Shown: positions 47-13,074 of the stretch, piece after piece
Layout: each line of letters begins with the position of its first letter
Numbering within the stretch: the first letter of the stretch is position 1
Source: a virus
DNA: 23,039 nucleotides
Virus record (IMG/VR): IMGVR_UViG_3300033149_006550
Location: 1 to 23,039 of that record
Direction: 5' to 3' (one strand)
Notes under the pieces: generated by a model
What the model saw: the letters and a program-made list of their open reading frames with translations, nothing else
Databases searched by the model: none
What the model was told of the DNA's origin: nothing
Position numbers and translations under genes: made by a program

Positions 47-1288
47 ATGAAAACTAAAGCATTGATTCCTGAAAATCCATTATTAGTTTTACCATCATTA
101 GCCGTCAAGATAGGACTCAAAGAAGCAATAATTTTGCAACAAATTCATTATTGGATATTAAAAAGCAAACATCTATATGATGGCAGATATTGGATATATA
201 ATACCTATTTAGATTGGCAAAAGCAATTTCCTTTTTGGGGAGAATCAACTATCAAAAAAACTATATTAAAAATGGAAAAAGATGGTTTATTAATATCAGG
301 AAATTTCAATAAATTAAAACAAGACAGAACAAAATGGTATAGTATTGACTACGAAAAAATCCCAGAAATCCTTCTTCCTACACAAGAGATAAGAGATAAC
401 CAATTAGGGAATAACTTACATTCAACCAAGGGGGATGGATTACCCCTTCAAGGGATGAGCTGTACCCATTCTAACCATAGAATATCTTCAGAGACTACTA
501 ACAATAATACTTCTTCTTTTTCTTTTATAAATAAAAGAAAAAAGAAGTATAGTCTTTCTCCTTTTGAAACTGTTGTTGATGATAAAAACATTGAAGAAAA
601 AAACATTCAAAATGTTTATAAACTGTTGTATATATGGAATAGTTTGCCTAATACTACTAAACATATAAAAGAAAATAAAACATATCAAAAATGTTTGTCT
701 ATTTTAAAAAAATATATACAAACTTATTCCTTTGAACTTATTAAAGATATTTTTATTAAATTTGGAGAGATAGAAATAAATAAGAAGATTGCACTTCCAG
801 ATTTCTTTGAACCTTATAATAAAAAAGAGAAGGAGAGTTATTTTTATCTTATGATAAATCTTGATAATTGTAGTATTACAAAAGAAATGAAAATTTTAAT
901 TGATATTTTTACTAAAGTAATATTGGGAGGAAAGACTACTAAATTTAATTTTAAACAAATACAACAATTTAAAGTTGCTTCTAATAGATTAAAAAAGGAT
1001 TTTAAAGAAGAATTAGAATACTTATCCTTTGAAAAACTTTGTTATTTGTTTGTAAATTCTTTGAAAGAATCTTTTATTGAAAATGTTTCAGCTGGAAATT
1101 TAGCAAGTAATTCTAATTACAATAACATTTTTTTACCTTTTATGGCTAAAAGAAAGGAGAGATTGCCTAAAATTATAAGATATAATCAACAAGGAGATCC
1201 TGTTTTTGATGAATGTAAAGCTTTGAATGATGCAGATAAAAGAAAATATTATAGTATTTTAAGAGGAGATGATATAGTTTGTTTATAA
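47..1288 (+). CDS. winged-helix phage replication initiator-like protein
   Basis: A 413-residue protein. Its N-terminal ~110 residues (PSLAVKIGLKEAIILQQIHYW, then a segment with STIKKTILKMEKDGLL) match the winged-helix domain common at the start of phage replisome-organiser or DnaD-like proteins, which bind the origin and help load the helicase. Residues ~110-180 are a low-complexity linker rich in Ser, Asn and Lys. The C-terminal ~230 residues are helical and I do not recognise them. The ATG at 47 follows AAAGGAGG with good spacing. The DnaB-like helicase three genes downstream supports a role in initiation. Family recognition of the N-terminus is fairly firm; the exact role is inferred. Confidence 0.75.
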   Translation: MKTKALIPENPLLVLPSLAVKIGLKEAIILQQIHYWILKSKHLYDGRYWIYNTYLDWQKQFPFWGESTIKKTILKMEKDGLLISGNFNKLKQDRTKWYSIDYEKIPEILLPTQEIRDNQLGNNLHSTKGDGLPLQGMSCTHSNHRISSETTNNNTSSFSFINKRKKKYSLSPFETVVDDKNIEEKNIQNVYKLLYIWNSLPNTTKHIKENKTYQKCLSILKKYIQTYSFELIKDIFIKFGEIEINKKIALPDFFEPYNKKEKESYFYLMINLDNCSITKEMKILIDIFTKVILGGKTTKFNFKQIQQFKVASNRLKKDFKEELEYLSFEKLCYLFVNSLKESFIENVSAGNLASNSNYNNIFLPFMAKRKERLPKIIRYNQQGDPVFDECKALNDADKRKYYSILRGDDIVCL

Positions 1289-1731
1289 ATACAATACCTA
1301 GTTTGGAATTTTTAAGAAATAAATATAATAAAGTTTGGGGATTTACAGAAAAAGAATTGTTAAATGAATTTTATAGTTTTTGTAAAAATAAAAATGTTAA
1401 AGTTATAGTTTTAAATAAACAACTTAGTAAAGAGGTTTTTAATATTCATTTGAATCATAGGATAAGTTTATTTGATAATGTACAATTATCAATAATAAAT
1501 TATATAGATGAAGTTCAATTAAAATTATGTTATGAAATACATTGTTTTTATAAAATAAATTCTCTAGAGGATATTTGCTTTTTTATTTATGATCGGTTTT
1601 TGTCTTTTAATTATATTATAGATAACAAAATCTTTTTTTACTATACTCCTTTTATTTTTGATTTTAATAATATAATAAAAAAATTAAAAATTAAGGTGTT
1701 ATTTTATAAACTTTTTTTAGAAGGAGTTTAA
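1279..1731 (+). CDS. unknown protein, TTG start
   Basis: A 150-residue protein that I do not recognise. It is very rich in Phe, Ile, Tyr, Asn and Lys, with no clear motif, signal peptide or transmembrane helix. The TTG at 1279 is chosen because GAGGAG lies at 1263-1268, ten bases upstream, and no ATG is suitably placed. It overlaps the end of the initiator-like gene by ten bases, so translation is probably coupled. Its place between an initiator-like gene and a DnaB-like helicase suggests a replication accessory role, but nothing in the residues proves it. Confidence 0.6.
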   Translation: MFINTIPSLEFLRNKYNKVWGFTEKELLNEFYSFCKNKNVKVIVLNKQLSKEVFNIHLNHRISLFDNVQLSIINYIDEVQLKLCYEIHCFYKINSLEDICFFIYDRFLSFNYIIDNKIFFYYTPFIFDFNNIIKKLKIKVLFYKLFLEGV

Positions 1732-1747
1732 TATTAAAACAGCAAAG

Positions 1748-2095
1748 GTGTCTGATATAATTTACAATTCTCTTTCTCAATTGATTTGTTCTTTTTGTCA
1801 AAAACCAATAGTATTATATAGAAAAGGAGCAAAAGGAGGCTTTTATATGTGTGAGTATGTAATAAACGAATTGAACAAACCACAAGAAAAGAGAGTAAGT
1901 GATAATGAATTAGATAAACATGATTATATTTTTATTCCATATCAAAATATTGAACTTATTTCATCTTCTCGTTTAAATGATGAATGGAAAAAAAGAGGCA
2001 AAATTTTTTATGAAATGAATTATCTATGTAAGGAATTTGGATTGGATATGGATAGTTTGTTGGAGGAGATGGATGAAAATAATCAAAATAAATAA
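1748..2095 (+). CDS. small CxxC protein upstream of the helicase; start uncertain
   Basis: 115 residues from GTG 1748. A CSFC motif near residue 14 and further Cys at about 35 and 95 hint at metal binding. The C-terminus is acidic and helical. The start is unresolved. GTG 1748 has no spaced ribosome site. An in-frame ATT at 1733 follows AAGGAG (1721-1726) by six bases. An ATG at 1847 has an excellent AAAGGAGG (1832-1839), but starting there would drop the CxxC. The 3' end overlaps the helicase start by 23 bases. It could be a helicase loader or another replication accessory protein by position; I do not recognise the family. Confidence 0.55.
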   Translation: MSDIIYNSLSQLICSFCQKPIVLYRKGAKGGFYMCEYVINELNKPQEKRVSDNELDKHDYIFIPYQNIELISSSRLNDEWKKRGKIFYEMNYLCKEFGLDMDSLLEEMDENNQNK

Positions 2096-3512
2096 TGTTA
2101 TAGAAAAAGATATTTTAATTGGTTGTATTGTTTCTGATCCTTTTATTAAAAAAATTTATCCAATTTTAGAATTAAATTTAATTGATATTCAGACTATTAA
2201 GATTGTAATGAAATGGGTATTATCTTATTTTGAAAGATATAAAGAAGCCCCAAAAAATAATATACAAAATATTTTTGAAGATAAAAAACCTATATTGAAA
2301 GATTCAGATGCAATATGGATTGAAGAATTTTTATGTAAATTATCAGATAAGTATGAACATTGGGATTATAATGAAGCATATTTATTTGATAGAGCAGTTA
2401 ATTATCTTAAATCACAAAAGATATCATTAGGATGTAAACAGACATTATCTCTTTTAGATGAAGGTAAAGTAGAAGAGGCTTCTTTGATATATCAAGATTC
2501 TTTTAAAACTGCTGTAAAATATGATTTAGATGTGGATGTTTTTGATTTAAATTTTGTTTTTGATTCTTTAAATAATGAAAGGAGGCCAGGAATAACATTA
2601 GGGATTGATTCTCTTGATGAACTAGTTGGAGAATTAAAAAGTGGATGGTTAGTAATTTATACAGGCCCGATGAAAAGAGGGAAAACAAAAGGATTAGTTT
2701 ACACTGCATTGAGAGGTTATTATTTAGGGAAAAAAGTAGTATTTATTTCTTTGGAATCTGAAAAAGAGGATGTAGGAACTTATTTTTGGCAAGGGTTAAG
2801 TTCTTTACCTTTGGATGAAAGGAGTTTGATTTATTATGGTTTTTTTAACGATGGTAATTTTTTAGAATTTGAAGAAATGATGAGAGAAAAAATTACTTAT
2901 AATAGAATAAGAAATAGTATAAATATAGCTAAAGGGGTTTCTGGAGGGTCTATAAGATTAAAAACATTTCCTGCATTTAGTGCTACTATTTCTGATATAG
3001 AAGATTATTTAAATTCACTAGAAGTATATGATAATTTTTGTCCAGATATAATTTGTATAGATTATATTGGGATATTAAGAGCAGAAAGAAATTATTCTCA
3101 GCGAAGAGATGAATTGAATTTTGTATCTACAAGAATGAAAGGATTAGCTCAAGAAAGAGATGCTATAATTTTTTCTGGATGGCAAGGACAAAGGAAAACT
3201 TTGGAAAAAGATGTTTTGTCTTTATCCGTTGTAAATGTTGCTGAAGATATTCGTATTCTAGCAAATACTGATGTTATGCTCTCTTTAAATCAAACCGAAG
3301 AAGAAAAAGATTTAGGATTATTGAGAATAGGTGTTTTAGCACATAGATGGAGAAGGTGTCCTTCATCTGTGCAAGTGGAAATTGCACAGAATTTAAATGT
3401 AGGACAATTTGCTTTAGATTCAAGATTGATTAGAAGGCCAGAAAAAATGGAAGATTTAGATTTTGGTCAGTATGATGGATTTGATATTTATCAGAAAAAA
3501 GAAGGGTTTTGA
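2073..3512 (+). CDS. DnaB-like replicative DNA helicase
   Basis: A 479-residue RecA-fold hexameric helicase that would unwind DNA at the fork. Residues ~1-130 form a DnaB-type helical N-terminal domain. The ATPase core opens with GITLGIDSLDELVG. Walker A is GPMKRGKT (198-205). Walker B is DIICID (325-330). A late HRWRRC segment fits the region carrying the arginine finger and DNA-binding loops. Upstream in-frame codons exist, but ATG 2073 follows GGAGGAG (2062-2068) and gives the expected N-terminus. It ends directly before the methyltransferase gene. Walker A reads MKRG where many DnaB proteins have a small-residue-rich loop, a variant seen in phage DnaB-like ATPases. Confidence 0.88.
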   Translation: MKIIKINNVIEKDILIGCIVSDPFIKKIYPILELNLIDIQTIKIVMKWVLSYFERYKEAPKNNIQNIFEDKKPILKDSDAIWIEEFLCKLSDKYEHWDYNEAYLFDRAVNYLKSQKISLGCKQTLSLLDEGKVEEASLIYQDSFKTAVKYDLDVDVFDLNFVFDSLNNERRPGITLGIDSLDELVGELKSGWLVIYTGPMKRGKTKGLVYTALRGYYLGKKVVFISLESEKEDVGTYFWQGLSSLPLDERSLIYYGFFNDGNFLEFEEMMREKITYNRIRNSINIAKGVSGGSIRLKTFPAFSATISDIEDYLNSLEVYDNFCPDIICIDYIGILRAERNYSQRRDELNFVSTRMKGLAQERDAIIFSGWQGQRKTLEKDVLSLSVVNVAEDIRILANTDVMLSLNQTEEEKDLGLLRIGVLAHRWRRCPSSVQVEIAQNLNVGQFALDSRLIRRPEKMEDLDFGQYDGFDIYQKKEGF

Positions 3513-5093
3513 ATGATAAATTTTACTTATTTACGACAGCCTCCAAAAAGATATACATTTGAAATGCCTAAATTAAGACAATGGATTGAATTTTGGTGTG
3601 AGGGAAAAGTATTGAATCTTTTTGCTGGGAAAACATTTTTAAATGTTGATGAGGTTAGAGTGGATATTAATGTAGAAATGAATGCAGATTATTATATGGA
3701 TGCTTATTCTTTTGTTAGTATGTGGATACAAGAAAGAAAAGCTAAATTTGGAACGATTATTATGGATCCGCCTTATTGTTATTCAGAAGATACTGATGTT
3801 TTTACTGATAAAGGATGGAAGGAAATAAAAGATATAGTAGATAATAGATTAGATTATAAAGTAGCTACTTTAAATCCGCTTACAAATGAATTAGAGTTTC
3901 ATAATATAATAAATTATTATAAATATAAATATGAAGGAGAAATGATTCATTTTAAACAGAGGAATGTGGAATTAAAGGTCACTCCAAATCATAAATTATG
4001 GTGTAGAAAACAATGGTATACACATAAGTTTAAGTTTACAGAAGCTTCAAGTGTGAGTCAAGGAATCACTTTTCAAAAAAATTGTGGGTGGAAAGGAATT
4101 AATAAAAGATTTTTTCTTTTGCCTAAAGTTGATTTTGTTAGAGCAAATAGATATGGAAAGAAATTTGCAGAAGAAAAAAAGATTGATATGAAAGATTGGT
4201 TGAGATTTTTTGGGATATGGATAGCAGAAGGGTCTTTAGGTAATAAAATCAAAAAGAATAGAAAAATGGCTTCTGAATTTAAAGTTACTATTACACAAAA
4301 AAAAATAGAGAATAGGAAAATAATAGAACGGTGGTTGGATAAACTTCCATTTCACTATTATAAAGATGGAATTGATTATCGTATATGGGATAAACAATTA
4401 TATACTTATTTATTTAAGTTTGGGAAAAGTAAACAAAGATATATTCCAGAAGATATTAAAAATTTAAGTTCTGATTTGTTGGGATATTTAATAGAAGGAT
4501 TAATGTTGGGAGATGGTTGTATATATAAAGAGGAAAAGTGTAAGAATGGTAAAATATATCGGTCTATACGTAAATCTTATTCTACTGCTTCAAAGAGATT
4601 GGCTAATGATTTTAATGAAATTATATTAAAAACTGGTAAATCTTGTACTATTTTTAAACAGGATAAAAATGGAGTATTTAATATTAGTATAATTGGTAGA
4701 AATAATTTTCCGACAATACCAACTATTAGAATGAATTATCAAAAAAAATTATATATGTATAAAGGATTTGTTTATTGTATTGAAGTTCCCAATAATATTT
4801 TATATGTTAGAACTAAAGGAAAAAATCAGAGTGTATGGTGTGGGAATTCAATAAGAAAATCCAGAGAAAAATATGAAGGGAAGTATGTAGGAAATTTAAC
4901 TAAAATTAAAAATGCTTTACCTTCTATATTGAGAGATAAAGGTAGAATTATTAGTTTGGGATATGATAGCGTTGGTATGTCCAAAAGCAGAGGGTTCACA
5001 AAAATAGCTATTTGTTTGATATGTCATGGAGGAGATCATAATGATACTATTGGACTTATAGAACAGAAAGATGAAAGAAGATTTTTTCTATGA
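3513..5093 (+). CDS. DNA methyltransferase with in-frame LAGLIDADG intein
   Basis: A 526-residue precursor. Exteins are residues 1-88 and 446-526, which would splice to about 169 residues. The N-extein carries a Rossmann motif I (VLNLFAGKT, 33-41) and ends in DPPY (85-88), the catalytic motif IV of amino-methyltransferases. The C-extein continues with SIRKSREKYEG and then ISLGYDSVGMSKSRGF, as in small phage DNA adenine methylase-like proteins. The likely reaction is S-adenosylmethionine-dependent methylation of adenine (or N4-cytosine) in DNA; specificity is not readable. The ATG abuts the helicase stop codon, and the 3' end overlaps the next gene by ATGA. Splicing is required for a working enzyme because the intein splits the active site. 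Confidence 0.85.
   Translation: MINFTYLRQPPKRYTFEMPKLRQWIEFWCEGKVLNLFAGKTFLNVDEVRVDINVEMNADYYMDAYSFVSMWIQERKAKFGTIIMDPPYCYSEDTDVFTDKGWKEIKDIVDNRLDYKVATLNPLTNELEFHNIINYYKYKYEGEMIHFKQRNVELKVTPNHKLWCRKQWYTHKFKFTEASSVSQGITFQKNCGWKGINKRFFLLPKVDFVRANRYGKKFAEEKKIDMKDWLRFFGIWIAEGSLGNKIKKNRKMASEFKVTITQKKIENRKIIERWLDKLPFHYYKDGIDYRIWDKQLYTYLFKFGKSKQRYIPEDIKNLSSDLLGYLIEGLMLGDGCIYKEEKCKNGKIYRSIRKSYSTASKRLANDFNEIILKTGKSCTIFKQDKNGVFNISIIGRNNFPTIPTIRMNYQKKLYMYKGFVYCIEVPNNILYVRTKGKNQSVWCGNSIRKSREKYEGKYVGNLTKIKNALPSILRDKGRIISLGYDSVGMSKSRGFTKIAICLICHGGDHNDTIGLIEQKDERRFFL
3777..4847 (+). mobile_element. LAGLIDADG intein inside the methyltransferase
   Basis: A 357-residue intein (precursor residues 89-445). Block A starts with Cys89 (CYSEDTDVFTDKGWKEI). 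Block B is VELKVTPNHKLW, with the usual TxxH. Two LAGLIDADG-type motifs are present, FFGIWIAEGSLG and YLIEGLMLGDGC, both keeping an acidic residue, so the homing endonuclease is probably active. Block F is VYCIEVPNNILYVR, and the end is WCGN followed by Ser446 as the +1 nucleophile. The penultimate residue is Gly rather than His, a form I recall from other phage inteins ending WCGN or WSGN. The insertion sits exactly after DPPY, a conserved active-site position typical of inteins. The element is about twice as long as its host protein. Confidence 0.9.
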
Positions 5094-6445
5094 AATTAAC
5101 TATAACTGAAGTAAATCCTGTATGGAGTCATATATCTGATAAAAATATTTTATATGGGTTACTCTATTATAAAATAAAATTTAAAAGAGTGAATAAAAGA
5201 GGATGGAAAGAATTAAAAGAAATAAAGAAAGAATTATATACATCAAAAGGATATTTTTATACTGGATTTATTCCAAAAGTAGAGAAATATTTAATTTCAA
5301 AAGGAATAGATTATTCTATTGATAGAAAACCTTTTGAAGATTTCCATTTTAAATTAAATAAAGAAATAGGAGGAAAAGTATTTAGAGATTATCAAATTGA
5401 AATAATTAATTCTGTTAATTTAAAAAGAAGAGGGATTTGGCAAGCTCCGACTGGGGCAGGGAAAACAATAATGGCTGCTGGAATTATATCTTCATTTCCT
5501 AAGTGTAAAACACTTTTTTTGGTTCATACTAAATCTCTTTTAGAACAGACAGTTAAAGTATTTAATGATCTTTTAGATTTTAAGATTGGCAAGGTTGGGG
5601 ATGGTATATGTGATATTCAATCTGTAACGGTGGCAACCAGACAATCAGCCGTGTCTCAATATCAACAACTTTTATCTTATTTTTGGAATATTATAATTGT
5701 AGATGAGGCTCATCATGTTAATACTGTTGGTGGGCAATATAATAAGCTTTTAGAAATAATAAAGGCTCCAATTAGGATTGGACTAACTGCTACACCACTT
5801 AAAGGAGAAAGAGGTATGCTTTGTGAAGGATTACTTGGCCCCATTGTTGAACTTATAGGAGAAAAGAAATTGCAAGAAAAAGAAATATTGGCAAAACCTA
5901 TAGTTAAAATATATAAAGTCCCAGATTCAAAGGTAATTACAAAATGGGATTCTTGGCGAGTAGCATATGAAAAAGGAATAATTTTGAATCGTACACGAAA
6001 TTTGTTAATTGTGGAAAAAGCAGTTGAATTTGTAAAGAAAAATAAAACTTTATTGATAATGGTTAAAAATTTGGAACATGGTGAAATATTAAACAAGATA
6101 TTTGATAGAAAATATTCGGATTTAGTTGTTTTTATTCAAGGAAATACACCAAATAAAATAAGAGAACAAGAGAAAAAAGATATAGAAGAAGGAAGACGTA
6201 AGATAATTATAGCAACATCTGTATGGTATGAAGGGGTTGATATTCCGAATTTATCTGGTATTATGATTGCTTCTGGTGGGAAAGAAGAACAGCTTGTTTT
6301 ACAAAGACCAGGGAGAGCAATGAGAGCTACGGAAAATAAAAAGGAATTTTATTTATTTGATTTTTATACTCCTCCTAATTTTTATTTGGTATCTCACTTT
6401 TGTGAAAGAATGTGGCTGTACATGAGGAAAGGTTGGATAAAATAA
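5090..6445 (+). CDS. UvsW-like superfamily 2 DNA helicase
   Basis: A 451-residue SF2 (DEAH) helicase. The N-terminal ~95 residues resemble the small DNA-binding domain of UvsW/XPB-type helicases. Motif Q/I is FRDYQ followed by APTGAGKT (Walker A at 119-126). Motif II is DEAH (205-208), motif III GLTATP (231-236), and motif VI QRPGRAMR (405-412). UvsW-type enzymes branch-migrate and unwind recombination intermediates and R-loops, which matches the RecA-like and gp46-like genes further on. The ATG overlaps the previous stop as ATGA. No nuclease domain is fused. Family assignment is firm; the UvsW label rests on size and context. Confidence 0.88.
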   Translation: MKLTITEVNPVWSHISDKNILYGLLYYKIKFKRVNKRGWKELKEIKKELYTSKGYFYTGFIPKVEKYLISKGIDYSIDRKPFEDFHFKLNKEIGGKVFRDYQIEIINSVNLKRRGIWQAPTGAGKTIMAAGIISSFPKCKTLFLVHTKSLLEQTVKVFNDLLDFKIGKVGDGICDIQSVTVATRQSAVSQYQQLLSYFWNIIIVDEAHHVNTVGGQYNKLLEIIKAPIRIGLTATPLKGERGMLCEGLLGPIVELIGEKKLQEKEILAKPIVKIYKVPDSKVITKWDSWRVAYEKGIILNRTRNLLIVEKAVEFVKKNKTLLIMVKNLEHGEILNKIFDRKYSDLVVFIQGNTPNKIREQEKKDIEEGRRKIIIATSVWYEGVDIPNLSGIMIASGGKEEQLVLQRPGRAMRATENKKEFYLFDFYTPPNFYLVSHFCERMWLYMRKGWIK

Positions 6446-6511: not shown

Positions 6512-7405
6512 ATGAGTATAAGAAATTTTGATGTTATTGCTTATTTAGAGGAGAGGAATATTTTTTATAAATTACGAGGTAGGAATGTAAGTGAAGGATG
6601 GGTTGGTATTCAATGTCCTTTTCCTTTTTGTAGTGATCCTTCAACTCATTTAGGAATTAATTTGGTTTCAAAAGCTGTTAATTGTTGGATTTGTGGGGGG
6701 CATTCTTTATACGATTTACTTTTTTTTCTTGAAGGTGAAAAAAAGTATTTTCCTTTTTGGAAGATAATATCTGAATTTTCTAGCAATGATTTTACGTTTA
6801 TAGATAATATTAAAAAATGTTCTGATTTTTGTACTTATCCAGTGGGGACTACAGAGATTGATTTTGATAATCCAATTGTAAAAGCATGGATGAAAAAAAG
6901 GAAGTTTGTAAAAGAAGATTTAAATGAATATGGGTTAAAGTATACTATTTATGGAAATTATAAATTTAGAATGATAATTCCAATTTCTATTGGTGGTGAT
7001 GTGGTTTGTTGGCAGGCAATGGATTTATTGGGAAAATCTAAATTAAAATATATTTCAAGTCCTTCAGAAAGTAGTGTAACAAAAATACATAATACACTTT
7101 ATAATTATGATAATGTTAGAGGAGATGAAATTATTATAACAGAAGGGGTTACTGATGTATGGAGATTAAAAGGTAATACGGTTGCTTTATTTACAAAGGT
7201 AATTTCTTCTTCTCAAAAAGAACTTTTATTGAAAAAAAATATAAAAAGAATAAAAGTATTGTTAGATTCAGATGCGGAAAAAGAATCAGAAAAAATGGCT
7301 AAAGAACTAAGTGCTGTTTTTGATGATGTGATTTTGATAAAATTAGATAAAGGAGACCCAGCAGATTTAGACGAGAAAGAAATTGAAGGAATAAAGAGAA
7401 TTTGA
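6512..7405 (+). CDS. zinc-finger/TOPRIM DNA primase, DnaG-like
   Basis: A 297-residue primase-like protein that would make RNA primers for lagging-strand synthesis. The N-terminal zinc-binding module has C35, C40, H46, C58 and C61, a CHC2-like arrangement. The TOPRIM fold has EGVTD (201-205) and LDSD (241-244) as metal-binding acidic residues, and GDPAD near 261-265, often seen in DnaG-type primases. It is much shorter than bacterial DnaG (~600) and lacks a clear helicase-interaction domain. ATG 6512 is chosen over an in-frame GTG at 6455 because the promoter -10 lies at 6482-6487, so the earlier codon would not be transcribed from it; GGAGAG lies at 6496-6501. Confidence 0.85.
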   Translation: MSIRNFDVIAYLEERNIFYKLRGRNVSEGWVGIQCPFPFCSDPSTHLGINLVSKAVNCWICGGHSLYDLLFFLEGEKKYFPFWKIISEFSSNDFTFIDNIKKCSDFCTYPVGTTEIDFDNPIVKAWMKKRKFVKEDLNEYGLKYTIYGNYKFRMIIPISIGGDVVCWQAMDLLGKSKLKYISSPSESSVTKIHNTLYNYDNVRGDEIIITEGVTDVWRLKGNTVALFTKVISSSQKELLLKKNIKRIKVLLDSDAEKESEKMAKELSAVFDDVILIKLDKGDPADLDEKEIEGIKRI

Positions 7406-7428
7406 TATATTTTTTATAAGGAGAAGAT

Positions 7429-7680
7429 ATGACAGAAAAGAAGAAATCGGGCAGACCTAAAAAACCAGTAGAAAAAAAGGCGAGGCCTATAACAATAGCT
7501 TTATATGAGGAAGATTTAGCAAGGATTAAATTTTTAAAAGGAGTTTGTGATTGTGATTGTACTTCTCTTTTGATAAGATATGCTTTAAGATTAGTTGAAG
7601 AAACTTTTGTAGAGACTGAAATGGAAAAAGCAAAAGAATTTCAAGAAGAAGGAGGGAGGAATTGTGCTTACGATAACTGA
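7429..7680 (+). CDS. ribbon-helix-helix DNA-binding protein with AT-hook-like tail
   Basis: An 83-residue protein. The basic N-terminus KKSGRPKKP looks like an AT-hook (GRP core in basic residues). Residues ~20-58 (ARPITIALYEEDLARIKFL, then TSLLIRYALRLVEE) fit a CopG/Arc-type ribbon-helix-helix domain: one beta strand followed by two helices. ATG 7429 has AAGGAGA just upstream. The gene overlaps the HNH-QueD gene by 17 bases, so the two are likely co-translated. A role as regulator of the modification operon, or as a DNA-architecture protein, is inferred from position. The fold call is moderate because the family is short and diverse. Confidence 0.65.
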   Translation: MTEKKKSGRPKKPVEKKARPITIALYEEDLARIKFLKGVCDCDCTSLLIRYALRLVEETFVETEMEKAKEFQEEGGRNCAYDN

Positions 7681-8749
7681 TGGTAAAACATGTCCTATAT
7701 GTAAGAAAATTTATAAAAATATTATTTTTCATATTAAGAGAAAACATCCTGAATATATGGACAAGATTTATTCTGATATTAATTCTTTTTATGATAGCAA
7801 TTTATATGTTAAAGAAATATATGTTAAATTGATAAAAGATAATCCTGTATATGAGAATATTATTTCTGAATATATGATAAGTAAAATTTATAAACGAAGA
7901 GGAAAATTTAATAGGGAACGAAGTAATAGAATTTTTTCTATTAGAAGAAAAGGGGAAAATAATACAGCAAAAAAGAAAGAAGTTAAGGAAAAAATAAAAA
8001 AAACTGTAACTAATTTATGGAAAGAAGGAAAATATAAAGATAGAATTAATGGTATGTTAGGAAGAAGTAAAGAATTATCTTTGAGATATAAACCAGAAAA
8101 GCATACTCCACTTTATCTTGCAGAACATGATTGTGTAAAATTTCTTTCTAATTTTCAAGATGTAAAGACGTGTAGTAGATGTGGAAGAAAAGATATAAAA
8201 ATGAATATACATCATATTGATGAGGATCATAGTAATTTTCTCATTTCTAATCTGGAGCCGTTATGTGTTCCATGTCATATGAGTTTTCATTATGGACATA
8301 GTAAAAGGGAATATTTGACTATAGTTAAATCTTTTAATCTTGATATTGCTCATTTTCTTCCTACTTCACATTATATAGGTAGATGTAATGCTTTTCATGG
8401 GCATCGACTAAAATGTGAAGTAGGGGTAAAGAAAAGAGTAGATAAAAATACTGGAATGGTATTGGATTTTAAGATTTTAAAAGAAATAATAAATGGGTTT
8501 ATTATAGATTCTTTAGATCATTCATTACTCAATGATTTTTTGGAGAATCCAACTTCTGAAAATCTTTGTGTATGGATGTGGGAAAAATTAATGTTTGATG
8601 CTCTTTTGAAAGGAATAGAATATATAAGAATATGGGAAACAGATTCTTCTTTTACTACTTTAGATAAAGGAGGAATGTTGTCTATGTTTAAAACTAATAT
8701 TGAAGATTATTTATTGAAATTTTCTGAGGATAAAAATGAAAATATCTAG
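7664..8749 (+). CDS. queD: HNH endonuclease fused to QueD (6-carboxytetrahydropterin synthase)
   Basis: A 361-residue multidomain protein, GTG start (GGAGGGAGG just upstream). It opens with a C2H2-like finger (C10, C13, H23, H28). Next comes a NUMOD3-like segment (~95-125, GENNTAKKKEV then LWKEGKY). An HNH domain follows: CSRC (170-173), NIHHID with H183/H184, N196, and CVPCH (201-205). From about 218 the protein is QueD: zinc ligands H230, H245 and H247, catalytic Cys241 in CNAFHGH, GMVLDF (264-269), LDH (284-286), PTSEN (296-300) and E325. QueD converts dihydroneopterin triphosphate to 6-carboxytetrahydropterin, step two of 7-deazaguanine synthesis. All QueD catalytic residues are present, so it should be active. 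The nuclease domains are typical of homing endonucleases, making this an unusual in-frame fusion. It overlaps queE by 14 bases. Confidence 0.87.
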   Translation: MLTITDGKTCPICKKIYKNIIFHIKRKHPEYMDKIYSDINSFYDSNLYVKEIYVKLIKDNPVYENIISEYMISKIYKRRGKFNRERSNRIFSIRRKGENNTAKKKEVKEKIKKTVTNLWKEGKYKDRINGMLGRSKELSLRYKPEKHTPLYLAEHDCVKFLSNFQDVKTCSRCGRKDIKMNIHHIDEDHSNFLISNLEPLCVPCHMSFHYGHSKREYLTIVKSFNLDIAHFLPTSHYIGRCNAFHGHRLKCEVGVKKRVDKNTGMVLDFKILKEIINGFIIDSLDHSLLNDFLENPTSENLCVWMWEKLMFDALLKGIEYIRIWETDSSFTTLDKGGMLSMFKTNIEDYLLKFSEDKNENI

Positions 8750-9395
8750 TATTTATAAAACAATTAGTGGAGAAGTTCCTTACCAAGGGTTTCCTTGTAT
8801 AATAGTAAGATTTTTTGGGTGTAAAAGAAAGTGTAATTATTGTGATTCTAAATTTGCATGGGAAGATTCTTCAAATTCTTGTTATTATGATCCTAGTGGT
8901 ATTTTAGAAGAGGTGCAGAATTTAGATAGAGATAAGAAATGTATTGTTCTGCTTACAGGTGGAGAACCTTTGGAGCAATCTAAAAAAGAGATGTTAAAGT
9001 TGTTTAGATATTTAAGAAAAAGGAAAGTTTTGCTTGAGACAAATGGTTTGGAAGATATTGAATGGGTTCCTGATTATGTTAAAATAGTTATGGATTTAAA
9101 ATTACCTTTTTCGGGATATGATTTTAGACGTACTCCAGTTACAGGTAAAAATTTTAAGAATTTAAAGAAGGAAGATTGGATAAAATTTGTGATTTCAGAT
9201 AGGGAAGAATATTTAATAGCAAAAAATTTCTGTTCTTTTTTGATAGGTAATATTGCTTTTAGTCCGTGTATTCCTTTATTAGAACCTTTTGTTTTGGCTG
9301 AATGGATGTTAGAAGATAATCTTTATGAAATTGTTTATAATTTACAGATTCATAAATTTATTTTTCCAGATTGGAAAGAAAATGAGGAAAGATAA
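8736..9395 (+). CDS. queE: QueE, 7-carboxy-7-deazaguanine synthase (radical SAM)
   Basis: A 219-residue radical S-adenosylmethionine enzyme that contracts 6-carboxytetrahydropterin to 7-carboxy-7-deazaguanine. The 4Fe-4S cluster cysteines are C29, C33 and C36 in GCKRKCNYCDS, a Cx3Cx2C pattern. SGEVPYQGFP precedes it, where QueE has SxQGEG...G, and TGGEP lies at 74-78. The end carries LQIHKF, matching the QueE tail QxHK. Length is normal for the family (~210-245). It starts 14 bases inside the end of the QueD gene with TGAGGA upstream, so the two consecutive pathway steps are translationally coupled. Confidence 0.9.
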   Translation: MKISSIYKTISGEVPYQGFPCIIVRFFGCKRKCNYCDSKFAWEDSSNSCYYDPSGILEEVQNLDRDKKCIVLLTGGEPLEQSKKEMLKLFRYLRKRKVLLETNGLEDIEWVPDYVKIVMDLKLPFSGYDFRRTPVTGKNFKNLKKEDWIKFVISDREEYLIAKNFCSFLIGNIAFSPCIPLLEPFVLAEWMLEDNLYEIVYNLQIHKFIFPDWKENEER

Positions 9396-10019: not shown

Positions 10020-10565
10020 ATGAAAGAATATTTAAAAAAATGGTTGAGATTTATAGGGGAAGACCCAGAAAGAGAAGGTCTTAAAGATACCCCTCAACGA
10101 ATGATGGACTCATGGAAAGAATTATATGGGGGATATAAAGAGGATCCAAAAGATTTATTTGTAGTATGGGAAGAAGGGAAAGATAGTAGTTTAGTTTTAT
10201 TAAAAAACATTTCTTTTGCGAGTACTTGTGAACACCACTGTATGCCTTTTTTTGGGAAAGCTCATATAGCATATATTCCCAATGGAAGGGTGATTGGGAT
10301 AAGCAAATTAGCTAGGTTATTAAAAATTTATACACGTAGACTTCAGATTCAAGAGAGGATTGGAGAGCAAGTTGTGGGAGATTTAATGAAATATTTGAAA
10401 CCTAAAGGTGCTGCATGTATTCTGGAGGCTACACATTTATGTATGAAAGGAAGAGGAGTTAAAATAGAAAATGCTTCTATGATTACAAGTGCTTTGGGGG
10501 GGTGCTTCCTTGAAGATTTTGCCTGTAGACAGGAGCTAATGATTTTAATTAATGGAGGGAAATAA
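10020..10565 (+). CDS. folE: GTP cyclohydrolase I (FolE)
   Basis: A 181-residue enzyme converting GTP to dihydroneopterin triphosphate, the first step of pterin and 7-deazaguanine synthesis. Zinc ligands are C70 and H73 in TCEHHCMPF and C141 in HLCMKGRGV; catalytic H72 and H139 are also present. IGISKLARL and QIQERIGEQV, both hallmarks of the family, follow. It is a core-length FolE without the N-terminal extension of mammalian enzymes. The ATG has a strong AAAGGAGGGG site. In a phage carrying QueD, QueE and a DpdA homologue, its job is most likely to boost precursor supply for DNA modification rather than folate. Confidence 0.93.
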   Translation: MKEYLKKWLRFIGEDPEREGLKDTPQRMMDSWKELYGGYKEDPKDLFVVWEEGKDSSLVLLKNISFASTCEHHCMPFFGKAHIAYIPNGRVIGISKLARLLKIYTRRLQIQERIGEQVVGDLMKYLKPKGAACILEATHLCMKGRGVKIENASMITSALGGCFLEDFACRQELMILINGGK

Positions 10566-10918
10566 TGAATTTTTATATTAGTAAAAGATTATTAATTATT
10601 ACATCTTCTTTTGTGGCGACTCATTCATGGGACGATGCGGTTGATTTTTTAAAAAATGAGCACAGACATACATTTTATATAAGAGTTGAAATGTTAGTTA
10701 AGCATAATGATAGAGAAAAAGAATTCATAAAGGAAAAAAAGAAATTAGAGTATCATTTAAAGCGAAAATATGAAGGAAAATTTTTAAAAAATATATCATG
10801 TGAGATGATAGCAGAAGAGATTTTGGATCGTTTTTTTTATTATACCGCTGTAGAATGTTGGGAAGATAGAGAAAACGGAGCAAGATTAGAAAAAGAATTT
10901 ACAATGGGAGGGGATTAA
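10565..10918 (+). CDS. QueD-like T-fold protein lacking the catalytic cysteine
   Basis: A 117-residue protein whose pattern matches the PTPS/QueD T-fold. FVATH (H20) and EHRHTFYIRVE (H33, H35) line up with the three zinc histidines of QueD (FxAAH and HGH). ISCEMIAEEI (77-86) lines up with PTSExLAxWI, and ECWEDRENGA (97-106) with the KETxxxG region that holds the pterin-anchoring Glu. Three things are missing: the Cys four residues before HRH, the LDH motif, and the DF before the central helix. So zinc and base binding are plausible but the QueD reaction is not. It overlaps folE by one base and precedes the glycosyltransferase, inside the deazaguanine cluster. I infer a reshaped active site working on CDG or a related base. 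The fold call is by eye and needs a structure prediction. Confidence 0.6.
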   Translation: MNFYISKRLLIITSSFVATHSWDDAVDFLKNEHRHTFYIRVEMLVKHNDREKEFIKEKKKLEYHLKRKYEGKFLKNISCEMIAEEILDRFFYYTAVECWEDRENGARLEKEFTMGGD

Positions 10919-10919
10919 A

Positions 10920-11927
10920 ATGATTATTTGGGGTTTGGAATTGGAACCACTTGAAATGAGGTATACAACACAACATGCAAAATGGATAAAAGAAGGGATG
11001 TGTAATAGTTTTATGCAATATTTTCCTATAAAAGGGGAAATATTAACAGAAAGTATAGAAGTAGGAGAATTTTTAGATGTTTTAGGAACTAATTATTGGA
11101 AAGCGAGTCAGCTTCAAAGAGTTATATCTTATATTGAAAATAAGACAATAATAAAAGGAGATATTTTATTTTTATTTGATATTTGGAATCCTGCTGTTAT
11201 TTCATTGGCTTATATACGAGATGCAATGGGAATTGATTTGAAATTTGTAGGTATGTGTCATGATGGGACATATGATGAATGGGATTTTACTACTCGTTGT
11301 GGGATGGAAGCATGGGGGGAAGCATTTGAAAATTCTATATTTTGGATTATGGATAAGATTTTTGTTGGAAGCCATTATCATAAAGAGTTGATTTGTAAAA
11401 AAAGATGTGTAAATCCAGATAAAATTATCGTAACTAGTTGGCCTTTTTTTCAAGAAGATCCTTTGGGAACACCAACAAAAAAGGAAAATATAGTTATATT
11501 TCCACATAGGTTGAATCCAGATAAAGCCCCAGAGAAATTTGATGAATTGGAAAGAAAATATAAAAAATCTAATTGGAAATTTATAAAAACACAAAATTTA
11601 GGATTAAGTAAGAAAGATTATTATGAATTATTAAATAAATCTAAAATAGCTGTTTCTTTTTCAAAGTTGGAATGCTTTGGTATAAGTATGAGAGAAGCTG
11701 TTTTAGCTGGATGTCTTCCTTTAGTTCCTAATAGATTGGCTTATTCTGAAACTTTCCCAACTTTATTTCAATATAAGGGAATAGATGATTTTTATGAGAA
11801 GATAGATCTCTTTATGAATAGTGATGGTTTTTATCAAACTGTTTTAGAGAATTTAAAAAAGAAGATATTGGAAAAAGGAAAGAAAGCTATTCCTTATATG
11901 ATTAAGGAGATTTTAAATATTGAATAA
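10920..11927 (+). CDS. GT4-type glycosyltransferase, queuosine-mannosyltransferase-like
   Basis: A 335-residue GT-B glycosyltransferase. The C-terminal half carries the GT4 EX7E signature ECFGISMRE (E251 and E259), which contacts the nucleotide-sugar donor. Around it, IFPHR (193-197), DKAPEKF (201-207), SKKDYYELL (230-238) and CLPLVPNRLAYSETFP resemble what I recall of tRNA-queuosine mannosyltransferase (QTMAN/GTDC1): PHRxxxDKxPExF, a DYFxxL segment and GCxPLxPxxLxYPExFP. The N-terminal half (MIIWGLELEPLE, then DILFLFDIWNP) fits an acceptor domain. There is no signal peptide or membrane helix, so it acts in the cytoplasm. It lies between the T-fold gene and the dpdA-like gene, suggesting the acceptor is a modified base or DNA; that is inference. 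A generic GT4 enzyme for a virion or host sugar is the alternative. Confidence 0.72.
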   Translation: MIIWGLELEPLEMRYTTQHAKWIKEGMCNSFMQYFPIKGEILTESIEVGEFLDVLGTNYWKASQLQRVISYIENKTIIKGDILFLFDIWNPAVISLAYIRDAMGIDLKFVGMCHDGTYDEWDFTTRCGMEAWGEAFENSIFWIMDKIFVGSHYHKELICKKRCVNPDKIIVTSWPFFQEDPLGTPTKKENIVIFPHRLNPDKAPEKFDELERKYKKSNWKFIKTQNLGLSKKDYYELLNKSKIAVSFSKLECFGISMREAVLAGCLPLVPNRLAYSETFPTLFQYKGIDDFYEKIDLFMNSDGFYQTVLENLKKKILEKGKKAIPYMIKEILNIE

Positions 11928-13074
11928 AGTTAATATAATGCTCGATAGTGGGGCACATTCTTATAGTAAACGTTTTTTTACCGTAGGAGCTTCGGATAAA
12001 TCACAATATGAATCATATGGGGTTGATATTCCTAAAGATTGGTCTTATGTTGATTCTGATGAATTTAAACACTATTTAAATGATTATATAGAATTTTGTA
12101 ATATTTTTAAAAATAAATTAGATTCTTATGTTTCTCTGGATATAATATATAATCCACAAAAGAGCTATGAAATTCAAAAGTATATGGAATCTTGTGGGTT
12201 AAATCCTCTACCAGTTTTTCATTATGGAGAGGATATTTCATGGCTAATAAAATATATGGAAGAAGGATATGCCTATATAGGAATATCTGGAGTGGGGCAA
12301 GGTATTTCTAAAACAGCGTACATAAAAAATTATGGAGATGAACTTTTTCAGATTGTATGCCCCCCTCCTCTTTATTTACCTTTGATTAAAACTCATGCTT
12401 TTTCAATTAATAATTGGGATGTAATAAATCGTTATCCTCTTTATAGTTGTGATGCAGTAACATCAGCAAGAACGAGTGGATTTGGTACTATTTTTTTTCC
12501 TAAATATGAAAAAGGTAATTGGAATTATTTAAAGTCCAAGAGGATTATGGTTTCTCTTTTGGCATTAAAAAGAGGGGGTATTCATTTTAAGAGATTGTCT
12601 GAAAAGGAACAAGGATTAATGAAGGAATTATTAACGAAAGAGGGATTTGAAATAGGAGAAAGTAAAATAGAAAATGGTAAAGAGATTTGTGTTAAAGAAG
12701 GGATTTGTAGTAGCTGTTATCAAAGGGATAGATGGAATGCTTTGGTATTCAATCGTGTAAGTAAGGTTCTTCCTTTTTGGAATCGTCAATGTGTTATAAA
12801 AAATAAACAATTTTTCTTTAAAGAAAACTTGACAAATATAAAGAATTTCTCTATATTAGAGAACAATAGGACTAAGTTGTACCTTTCACATTGGGCTGCA
12901 AATTATTTTAGTACTATATTTTATGAAATGGGAATTGAGAATAGACTTGTTTCTTATTTTTATATGAGATTTCAAGAAAAGTTAAATCAAGAAGAATGTA
13001 TATGTTTTATGAAGGAGTATTTAGAAAAAGGATATGTATCTTCTAAAAAAGAAAGGAGAAAAGATGATAAATAG
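11920..13074 (+). CDS. dpdA: DpdA-family DNA 7-deazaguanine transglycosylase
   Basis: A 384-residue member of the tRNA-guanine transglycosylase superfamily, DpdA-like. MLDSGAHS (D9) fits the TGT DSGGFQ acid/base Asp, YIGISGVG (119-126) the base-binding GG loop, and HAFSINN (from H159) with CDAVTSAR (177-184) the second-half HxxG and nucleophile region, D178 being the likely nucleophile. GICSSC (C263, C266) with C257 may be a reduced zinc site. DpdA enzymes replace guanine in DNA by a 7-deazaguanine base. The TTG at 11920 is chosen because AAGGAG lies at 11904-11909; the next ATG (11938) has no spaced site and would begin right at the active-site loop. It overlaps the glycosyltransferase by 8 bases and the clamp by 11. 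A tRNA substrate is possible but less likely given the operon. Confidence 0.78.
   Translation: MNKVNIMLDSGAHSYSKRFFTVGASDKSQYESYGVDIPKDWSYVDSDEFKHYLNDYIEFCNIFKNKLDSYVSLDIIYNPQKSYEIQKYMESCGLNPLPVFHYGEDISWLIKYMEEGYAYIGISGVGQGISKTAYIKNYGDELFQIVCPPPLYLPLIKTHAFSINNWDVINRYPLYSCDAVTSARTSGFGTIFFPKYEKGNWNYLKSKRIMVSLLALKRGGIHFKRLSEKEQGLMKELLTKEGFEIGESKIENGKEICVKEGICSSCYQRDRWNALVFNRVSKVLPFWNRQCVIKNKQFFFKENLTNIKNFSILENNRTKLYLSHWAANYFSTIFYEMGIENRLVSYFYMRFQEKLNQEECICFMKEYLEKGYVSSKKERRKDDK
12829..12857 (+). promoter_or_regulatory. internal promoter inside dpdA reading into the clamp gene
   Basis: TTGACA at 12829-12834, a 17-base spacer, then TATATT at 12852-12857. It lies within the dpdA-like coding region, about 205 bases before the clamp ATG. 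The fit to the housekeeping consensus equals the other two promoters here. It would let clamp and polymerase be expressed apart from the modification genes. Chance occurrence in A+T-rich DNA is possible, but the full -35, exact spacing and near-perfect -10 argue for use. Confidence 0.65.

Follow-up and report, generated by a model that had tools for sequence, protein, structure and literature searches.

How did an HNH nuclease come to share one reading frame with a complete QueD enzyme in a phage genome, and what keeps the two together? The question is raised by the window analyzed here, i.e., a whole 23,039-base virus record (IMGVR_UViG_3300033149_006550), in which an uninterrupted plus-strand frame (7664–8749; 361 aa, GTG start) reads through an HNH nuclease and then a complete QueD. 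A strong Shine-Dalgarno-like sequence precedes it (7650–7659, plus strand; duplex energy -12.2 with the 16S tail). The initial annotation had proposed that the nuclease captured, or was captured by, the enzyme, and had considered a domesticated nuclease or a passive fusion.

Domains of the fused protein

The in-frame fusion read by the initial annotation holds, as the frame is open throughout, both domains are matched in Pfam and 19 further fusions exist. The QueD domain (8315–8746) was matched to PF01242 with an E value of 2.7e-27 (residues 219–334, 95.6 bits against a cut-off of 22.4) and aligned to the structures 2oba of P. aeruginosa (E 5.8e-19) and 4ntm, a 6-carboxy-tetrahydropterin synthase (E 7e-14). 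Its NCBIfam QueD score of 85.7 is just below the cut-off of 89.25, which the fusion at locus L060 exceeds. The AlphaFold model (mean pLDDT 82) also matches QueD structures. All seven catalytic positions (His230, Cys241, His245, His247, Asp285, His286 and Glu325) are invariant in the 14 aligned fusions, in agreement with the earlier claim that every catalytic residue is present, and the enzyme is apparently functional. The codon of Cys241 lies at 8384–8386, and the homologous codon marks the region in which a resident queD is broken in five other loci (see below).

The HNH domain (residues 170–209, 8171–8290; CxxC, HH, N, CxxCH, H) was matched to PF01844 at residues 170–207 with 21.4 bits, exactly at the cut-off. 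HNH matches were weak overall, and a structure model of the HNH part only was of low confidence and gave no fold match. H183, H184, N196, H205 and H209 are invariant in 14 of 14 aligned fusions. The segment before it (residues 97–133, 7952–8062; GENN...KDRINGMLG) resembles NUMOD3 by eye, and G97, N100, I111, W119, G122, Y124 and R127 are invariant in the same 14 fusions; the conservation thus stands, although no Pfam NUMOD3 match was found in any of 13 family members. Similarly, the N-terminal CxxC...H finger-like module (residues 10–28, 7691–7747), presumed to serve DNA targeting, had been described as C2H2-like. C10, C13 and H28 are invariant among the first five fusions, and C10 and C13 are kept in at least 90% of 13 members, but the C2H2 match of the window is below the Pfam threshold.

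Recurrence of the fusion in viral contigs

Searching for database proteins with the same HNH-QueD order, as the initial annotation had advised, returned 20 distinct fusions in 21 IMG/VR contigs, the window included, all with the same order of domains. The FolE of the window as query gave 55 loci, among them L027, whose fusion is 60% identical to that of the window over 255 aligned residues, across the junction; the other genes of these two phages are 35% (QueE), 32% (primase) and 60% (FolE) identical. Scans with alignments of the fusions added 13 further contigs (one of them a near-copy) and then L097. A scan with the QueD part only gave 80 loci, 77 with new locus identifiers; 14 of these 77 have an HNH-derived N-terminus joined to QueD, and five of them were new (L108, L109, L112, L116 and L118). 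We left out as repeats L057, which is on the same contig as L027, and L064, which is 99.94% identical to L063 over 10,010 bases. HNH matches at L071 (vir524) and L100 were set aside as fusions because QueD is absent. No full-length fusion was found in phage or plasmid records or by two scans of bacterial genomes, queries with the HNH part alone or the QueD part alone found no close relatives, and no HNH-QueD fusion was found in the open-licence papers searched.

The fused QueD is the only PTPS match in 13 of 15 records, including that of the window; the exceptions are L067 and the record of L062, which has a weak second match. Comparison with stand-alone loci suggests that in several carriers, among the loci listed, the fusion stands where queD normally does, ahead of queE. 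At L058, L059 and L065, it adjoins a helicase-like gene instead of queE, pointing to stable residence or a different route; topoisomerase-like genes are also nearby (by eye) at L058 and L059. The fusion at L116 (4464–5783) carries a C-terminal extension of more than 100 residues beyond QueD, and L032 (2061–2519) has a C2H2-like finger in frame with a stand-alone QueD and no HNH.

Within the family, the N-terminal module differs among members while HNH and QueD stay. CxxC fingers are present in most, two members are ROS/MucR-like by Pfam, and the N-termini of L063, L116 and L118 are HTH-like by eye. The HNH part has a mean identity of 48% among the 14 fusions compared. Fused QueDs mostly read HGHEW, while the ordinary QueDs compared often read HGHS or HGHT (by eye), a variant that could make the fused QueDs resistant to cutting.

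Reading frame, destroyed HNH motifs and possible internal starts

The Cys and the HGH motif of QueD are intact in all 20 fusions, while 17 of them retain the HNH motif and L097, L108 and L112 have it destroyed. The last HNH His is missing in L109, and a His replaces a zinc Cys in L069. The three members with a destroyed HNH nevertheless have 174–204 codons open from the first Met into QueD. An in-frame start at the QueD boundary with a duplex energy of -5 or better is absent in 17 of the 20 and present only in the window, L027 and L062. In the window, the possible internal start consists of AAGGGA followed by TTG at 8315 (8305–8317, plus strand; duplex energy -5.3), a value which proves little, as 14.5% of the window's 165 internal in-frame start codons match it. 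Since most carriers have no good start for QueD only, interrupting the nuclease part by a shift of frame or a stop codon would deprive the phage of its QueD; the nuclease may therefore give up its catalytic residues, while its frame has to stay open. The passive fusion riding on QueD expression that the initial annotation had offered is a poor fit, given that all 20 fusions retain the junction and 17 of them have no such boundary start.

One QueD near the fused group, at L111 (4785–5408), has a 67-residue N-terminal extension without HNH, possibly a relic.

Remnants of a resident queD

Aligning the fusion with QueDs that lack the N-terminal part, a check proposed at the outset for finding the insertion point, was informative, as five loci are broken near the codon of the catalytic Cys. 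The N-termini of 44 stand-alone QueDs were made into a profile, with which we searched 15 fusion loci and six more in six frames. Pieces of a resident queD, different from the fused one, were found directly upstream of, or fused to, the ORF and on the same strand in five of 20 loci, i.e., L060, L063 (and its copy L064), L066, L067 and L116; a clear remnant is absent in the other 15. The scores are strong for L060 (E 3.1e-10), L063 (E 2.6e-5) and L067 (E 2.9e-5). The L066 fragment is weak (domain E 1.2) and is identical to the L044 QueD at 13 of its first 25 positions; its score is reached by 0.2% of 1004 ORF N-termini, and it is placed exactly at the break. The L116 fragment (E 0.039) is near noise, with other matches, the QueD domains themselves apart, at 0.09 to 1.2, and is also placed exactly at the break. 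The fragments end in HEGDC, HEGK, SYSEE, SYTE and YQGK, all breaking no more than about two codons away from that of the catalytic Cys and before the HGH motif. No C-terminal queD remnants were detected when a full-length QueD profile was run over the fusion loci.

The clearest scar, and a fresh-looking insertion, is that of L067. There, 62 identical nucleotides of queD stand before and after the putative cassette, ending at the break, and the repeated 62 nucleotides after it begin a complete second, resident queD (5186–5632). This resident QueD has Ala at the position of the catalytic Cys, which is Cys in the 44 stand-alone QueDs compared. Used as query, it found only itself and a 39% relative, and thus no close relative with an empty site; the synteny comparison with stand-alone loci likewise gave no close empty site among the loci listed.

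In the window itself, no clear scar is present. The first five codons (7664–7678, plus strand; M/V-L-T-I-T) could be a remnant of a resident queD start, and are suggestive only: among 1004 other ORF N-termini, three reach this score against the profile of the QueD start, which becomes about 4% once the scoring of 14 sequences is taken into account. If real, this remnant is broken at a different position from those of the other five loci. The N-terminus of L068 looked plausible by eye as a queD remnant and failed the score test. Insertion at a fixed site in the target gene, as expected of a homing endonuclease, was therefore found at the level of the family only, in five of 20 loci, two of them weak. 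The window is assigned to the proposed homing cassette because it belongs to the fusion family, not because of a scar of its own.

Inheritance of the fused QueD relative to QueE and FolE

In a tree of 56 QueDs, the 14 fused rows form one clade (support 97/91), and the resident QueD of L067 is far from it. With a larger sampling (loci L108–L149 minus copies and contigs already included; L150–L177 were left out), the 21 fused rows need three changes, against a shuffled mean of 19.1. In the QueE tree (52 rows), by contrast, 11 carriers need nine changes against a shuffled mean of 10.2, and 100 of 500 shuffles were as low. QueD and QueE identities are correlated in 39 stand-alone phages (r=0.82) and not in 10 carriers (r=0.03, p 0.37). 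The mean identity among these carriers is 50% for QueD and 29% for QueE, a gap of 21 points, whereas 2000 subsets of stand-alone phages gave at most 10.2 points. Near-copies (L041, L016, L022 and L020) were dropped before the tree and correlation counts, and L060 and L005, with a QueE that is mostly gaps, were omitted from the QueD-QueE correlation.

HNH identity follows that of QueD in 14 fusions (r 0.67, p 0.0012) and, in the subset of 10 carriers, gave r 0.50 (p 0.08); its relation to QueE in the 10 carriers (r 0.39, p 0.075) is not clearly uncorrelated. Carriers are less scattered in the FolE tree (five changes against 9.5 shuffled) in a set that was fetched by FolE similarity, and this tree is unreliable, having long branches and three rows that fill fewer than half of the columns. 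These data support that the proposed cassette spreads independently of QueE and are less clear for FolE.

A putative cassette that homes into queD and replaces it

Based on these observations, we consider it likely that the fused ORF is a splicing-free HNH homing cassette that targets queD and carries a replacement QueD as its C-terminal domain. The N-terminal DNA-binding module and the HNH domain would cut the resident queD near its active-site codons, and the break would be repaired from the carrier phage, by which the cassette is copied into queD. The resident queD would be left truncated after 22–24 codons, and the divergent, presumably cleavage-resistant QueD of the cassette would take over, expressed from the nuclease's own frame. 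Such a translational lock would make the invader not easily lost, since QueD shares the ORF of the nuclease. Among the three ideas put forward by the initial annotation, capture of QueD by the nuclease or the reverse fared best; the targeting of queD and its replacement are a mechanism that it did not contain. A splicing element was rejected: no group I or II intron was matched in Rfam at the gathering threshold in the window and 10 fusion loci, and no intein match was found in the fusion, while the methylase ORF at 3513–5093 does give one.

The fusion might instead serve genome discrimination, which we regard as unlikely: the HNH nuclease would cut host or rival DNA without 7-deazaguanine and be coupled to QueD so that the protection comes along with the nuclease. 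The HNH motif kept in 17 of 20 members, the QueE, FolE and DpdA-like enzyme encoded in the window, and weak matches to ZorE-type nucleases at L060 and L066 (PADLOC) would fit this, PADLOC giving no match in the window protein. It leaves unexplained, however, why queD fragments occur at one position and why the fusion is independent of QueE; moreover, QueD persists in L097, L108 and L112 although their HNH is dead, and the N-terminal modules vary as expected for retargeting to a sequence. The related earlier proposal of a domesticated nuclease sensing unmodified DNA is less likely: nothing supports it directly, and a selfish element is favored by the scattered QueE partners, by the scars in queD and by the relatives with a dead nuclease.

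Somewhat less probable again is an ordinary free-standing homing nuclease upstream of queD with chance read-through, in which QueD is made from an internal start. Phage nucleases that target neighboring genes are known (PMC2988022, in excerpt), and the AAGGGA and TTG of the window and comparable sites in L027 and L062 would allow it, but the remaining 17 fusions have no such start, the three dead-HNH members keep their frame open into QueD, and the cassette has its own distinct QueD lineage. That the N-terminal part no longer cuts and is a DNA- or partner-binding module for QueD seems improbable; it would agree with the three destroyed HNH motifs and with the same kind of helicase-like neighbor in L058, L059 and L065, and it is opposed by the motif kept in the other 17 members, with its 48% mean identity in 14 compared, and by the fresh-looking insertion in L067. 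Although every locus is a metagenome assembly, an assembly or sequencing artefact joining two genes is refuted by the recurrence of the same domain order in 20 distinct fusions and can practically be dismissed.

Comparison with known homing systems

The WHO elements of yeast, as described in the excerpted text of eLife 2020 (PMC7282813), are splicing-free and replace the 3' end of FBA1. They share with the proposed cassette splicing-free homing into a metabolic gene, replacement of part of the target by the element's own resistant version, old-gene fragments that remain, a chimeric gene history and a zinc-finger module in the nuclease; a target gene replaced in part, with fragments left, was observed here in L060, L063, L066, L067 and L116. 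WHO nucleases, however, are intein-derived, encoded as separate genes downstream of FBA1 and free to decay (PMC7282813, in excerpt), whereas in the cassette, which is found in phages, an HNH nuclease precedes a complete replacement enzyme in the same frame. No LAGLIDADG or intein match, as a nuclease of the WHO type would give, was found in the fusion.

SegF and MobE, phage nucleases that act on neighboring genes, are also intron-free and travel with the targeted neighbor gene by break repair (PMC2988022, in excerpt). They are separate genes, whereas the cassette combines nuclease and replacement enzyme in one ORF and breaks into the target gene. The HomeR drive likewise homes into an essential gene and brings a rescue for it (PMC7968924, in excerpt); it is engineered, based on Cas9 and used in flies, while the cassette would be natural and protein-targeted and would unite the nuclease and the rescue in a single polypeptide. 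The QueDs of 7-deazaguanine phages belong to the same enzyme family, with QueE, FolE and DpdA-like genes in the genome (PMC6884629, in excerpt). The stand-alone phage QueDs compared have no nuclease domain, and the main text of that paper does not use the words HNH or homing.

Residues 97–209 of the cassette match the HNH of an intein in the L060 QueE (E 2.2e-6) and an intein-like ORF of L099 (E 4e-8; intein read by eye). These two HNH domains sit inside protein-splicing elements, whereas the cassette has no intein match. By the tests made, the putative cassette falls outside the WHO, intron and intein classes. The L060 QueE with its apparent HNH-containing intein (6669–8390) stands directly after the fusion, and a helicase-like ORF of the same locus (1280–4030) apparently holds another intein (by eye).

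We lean, with less confidence than in the homing reading itself, towards regarding this natural one-polypeptide home-and-rescue cassette as a further structural class of homing element, which would target a gene of a DNA-modification pathway, involve no splicing and have its frame protected by a C-terminal enzyme; L097, L108, L112 and the relic of L111 would represent later stages of its cycle. If true, designed home-and-rescue drives would have a counterpart in nature, and a selfish gene would escape decay through a translational lock to an enzyme that the host needs. A selfish element, and not selection on DNA modification, would then have spread part of the diversity of phage QueDs, and where phage genomes contain nuclease-enzyme fusions, these could be read as homing scars. 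The insertion position, the differing targeting modules and the dead relatives make the idea directly testable.

Pathway genes next to the fusion

The queE gene (8736–9395, plus strand; phrog_2076, E 1.1e-27) overlaps the end of the fusion and is its pathway partner, used above as the comparator gene. On the same strand follow folE, the GTP cyclohydrolase I of the same pathway (10020–10565; PF01227, E 1.9e-63), and a gene for a TGT-like, DpdA-type base-exchange enzyme (11920–13074; phrog_887, E 1.1e-30), which points to modification of its DNA by the phage itself. Because QueE, FolE and the DpdA-like enzyme are encoded downstream of the fusion, the phage probably makes 7-deazaguanine DNA, judging from this gene set and PMC6884629 (in excerpt).

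A small phrog_17812 protein encoded at 10565–10918 has a weak likeness to the QueD profile (E 0.05), with its His residues kept and the catalytic Cys absent (by eye), and may be a second PTPS-fold protein. Farther upstream, the methylase ORF at 3513–5093 is DNA methyltransferase-like, its DPPY motif being split by an apparent intein that contains a LAGLIDADG domain.
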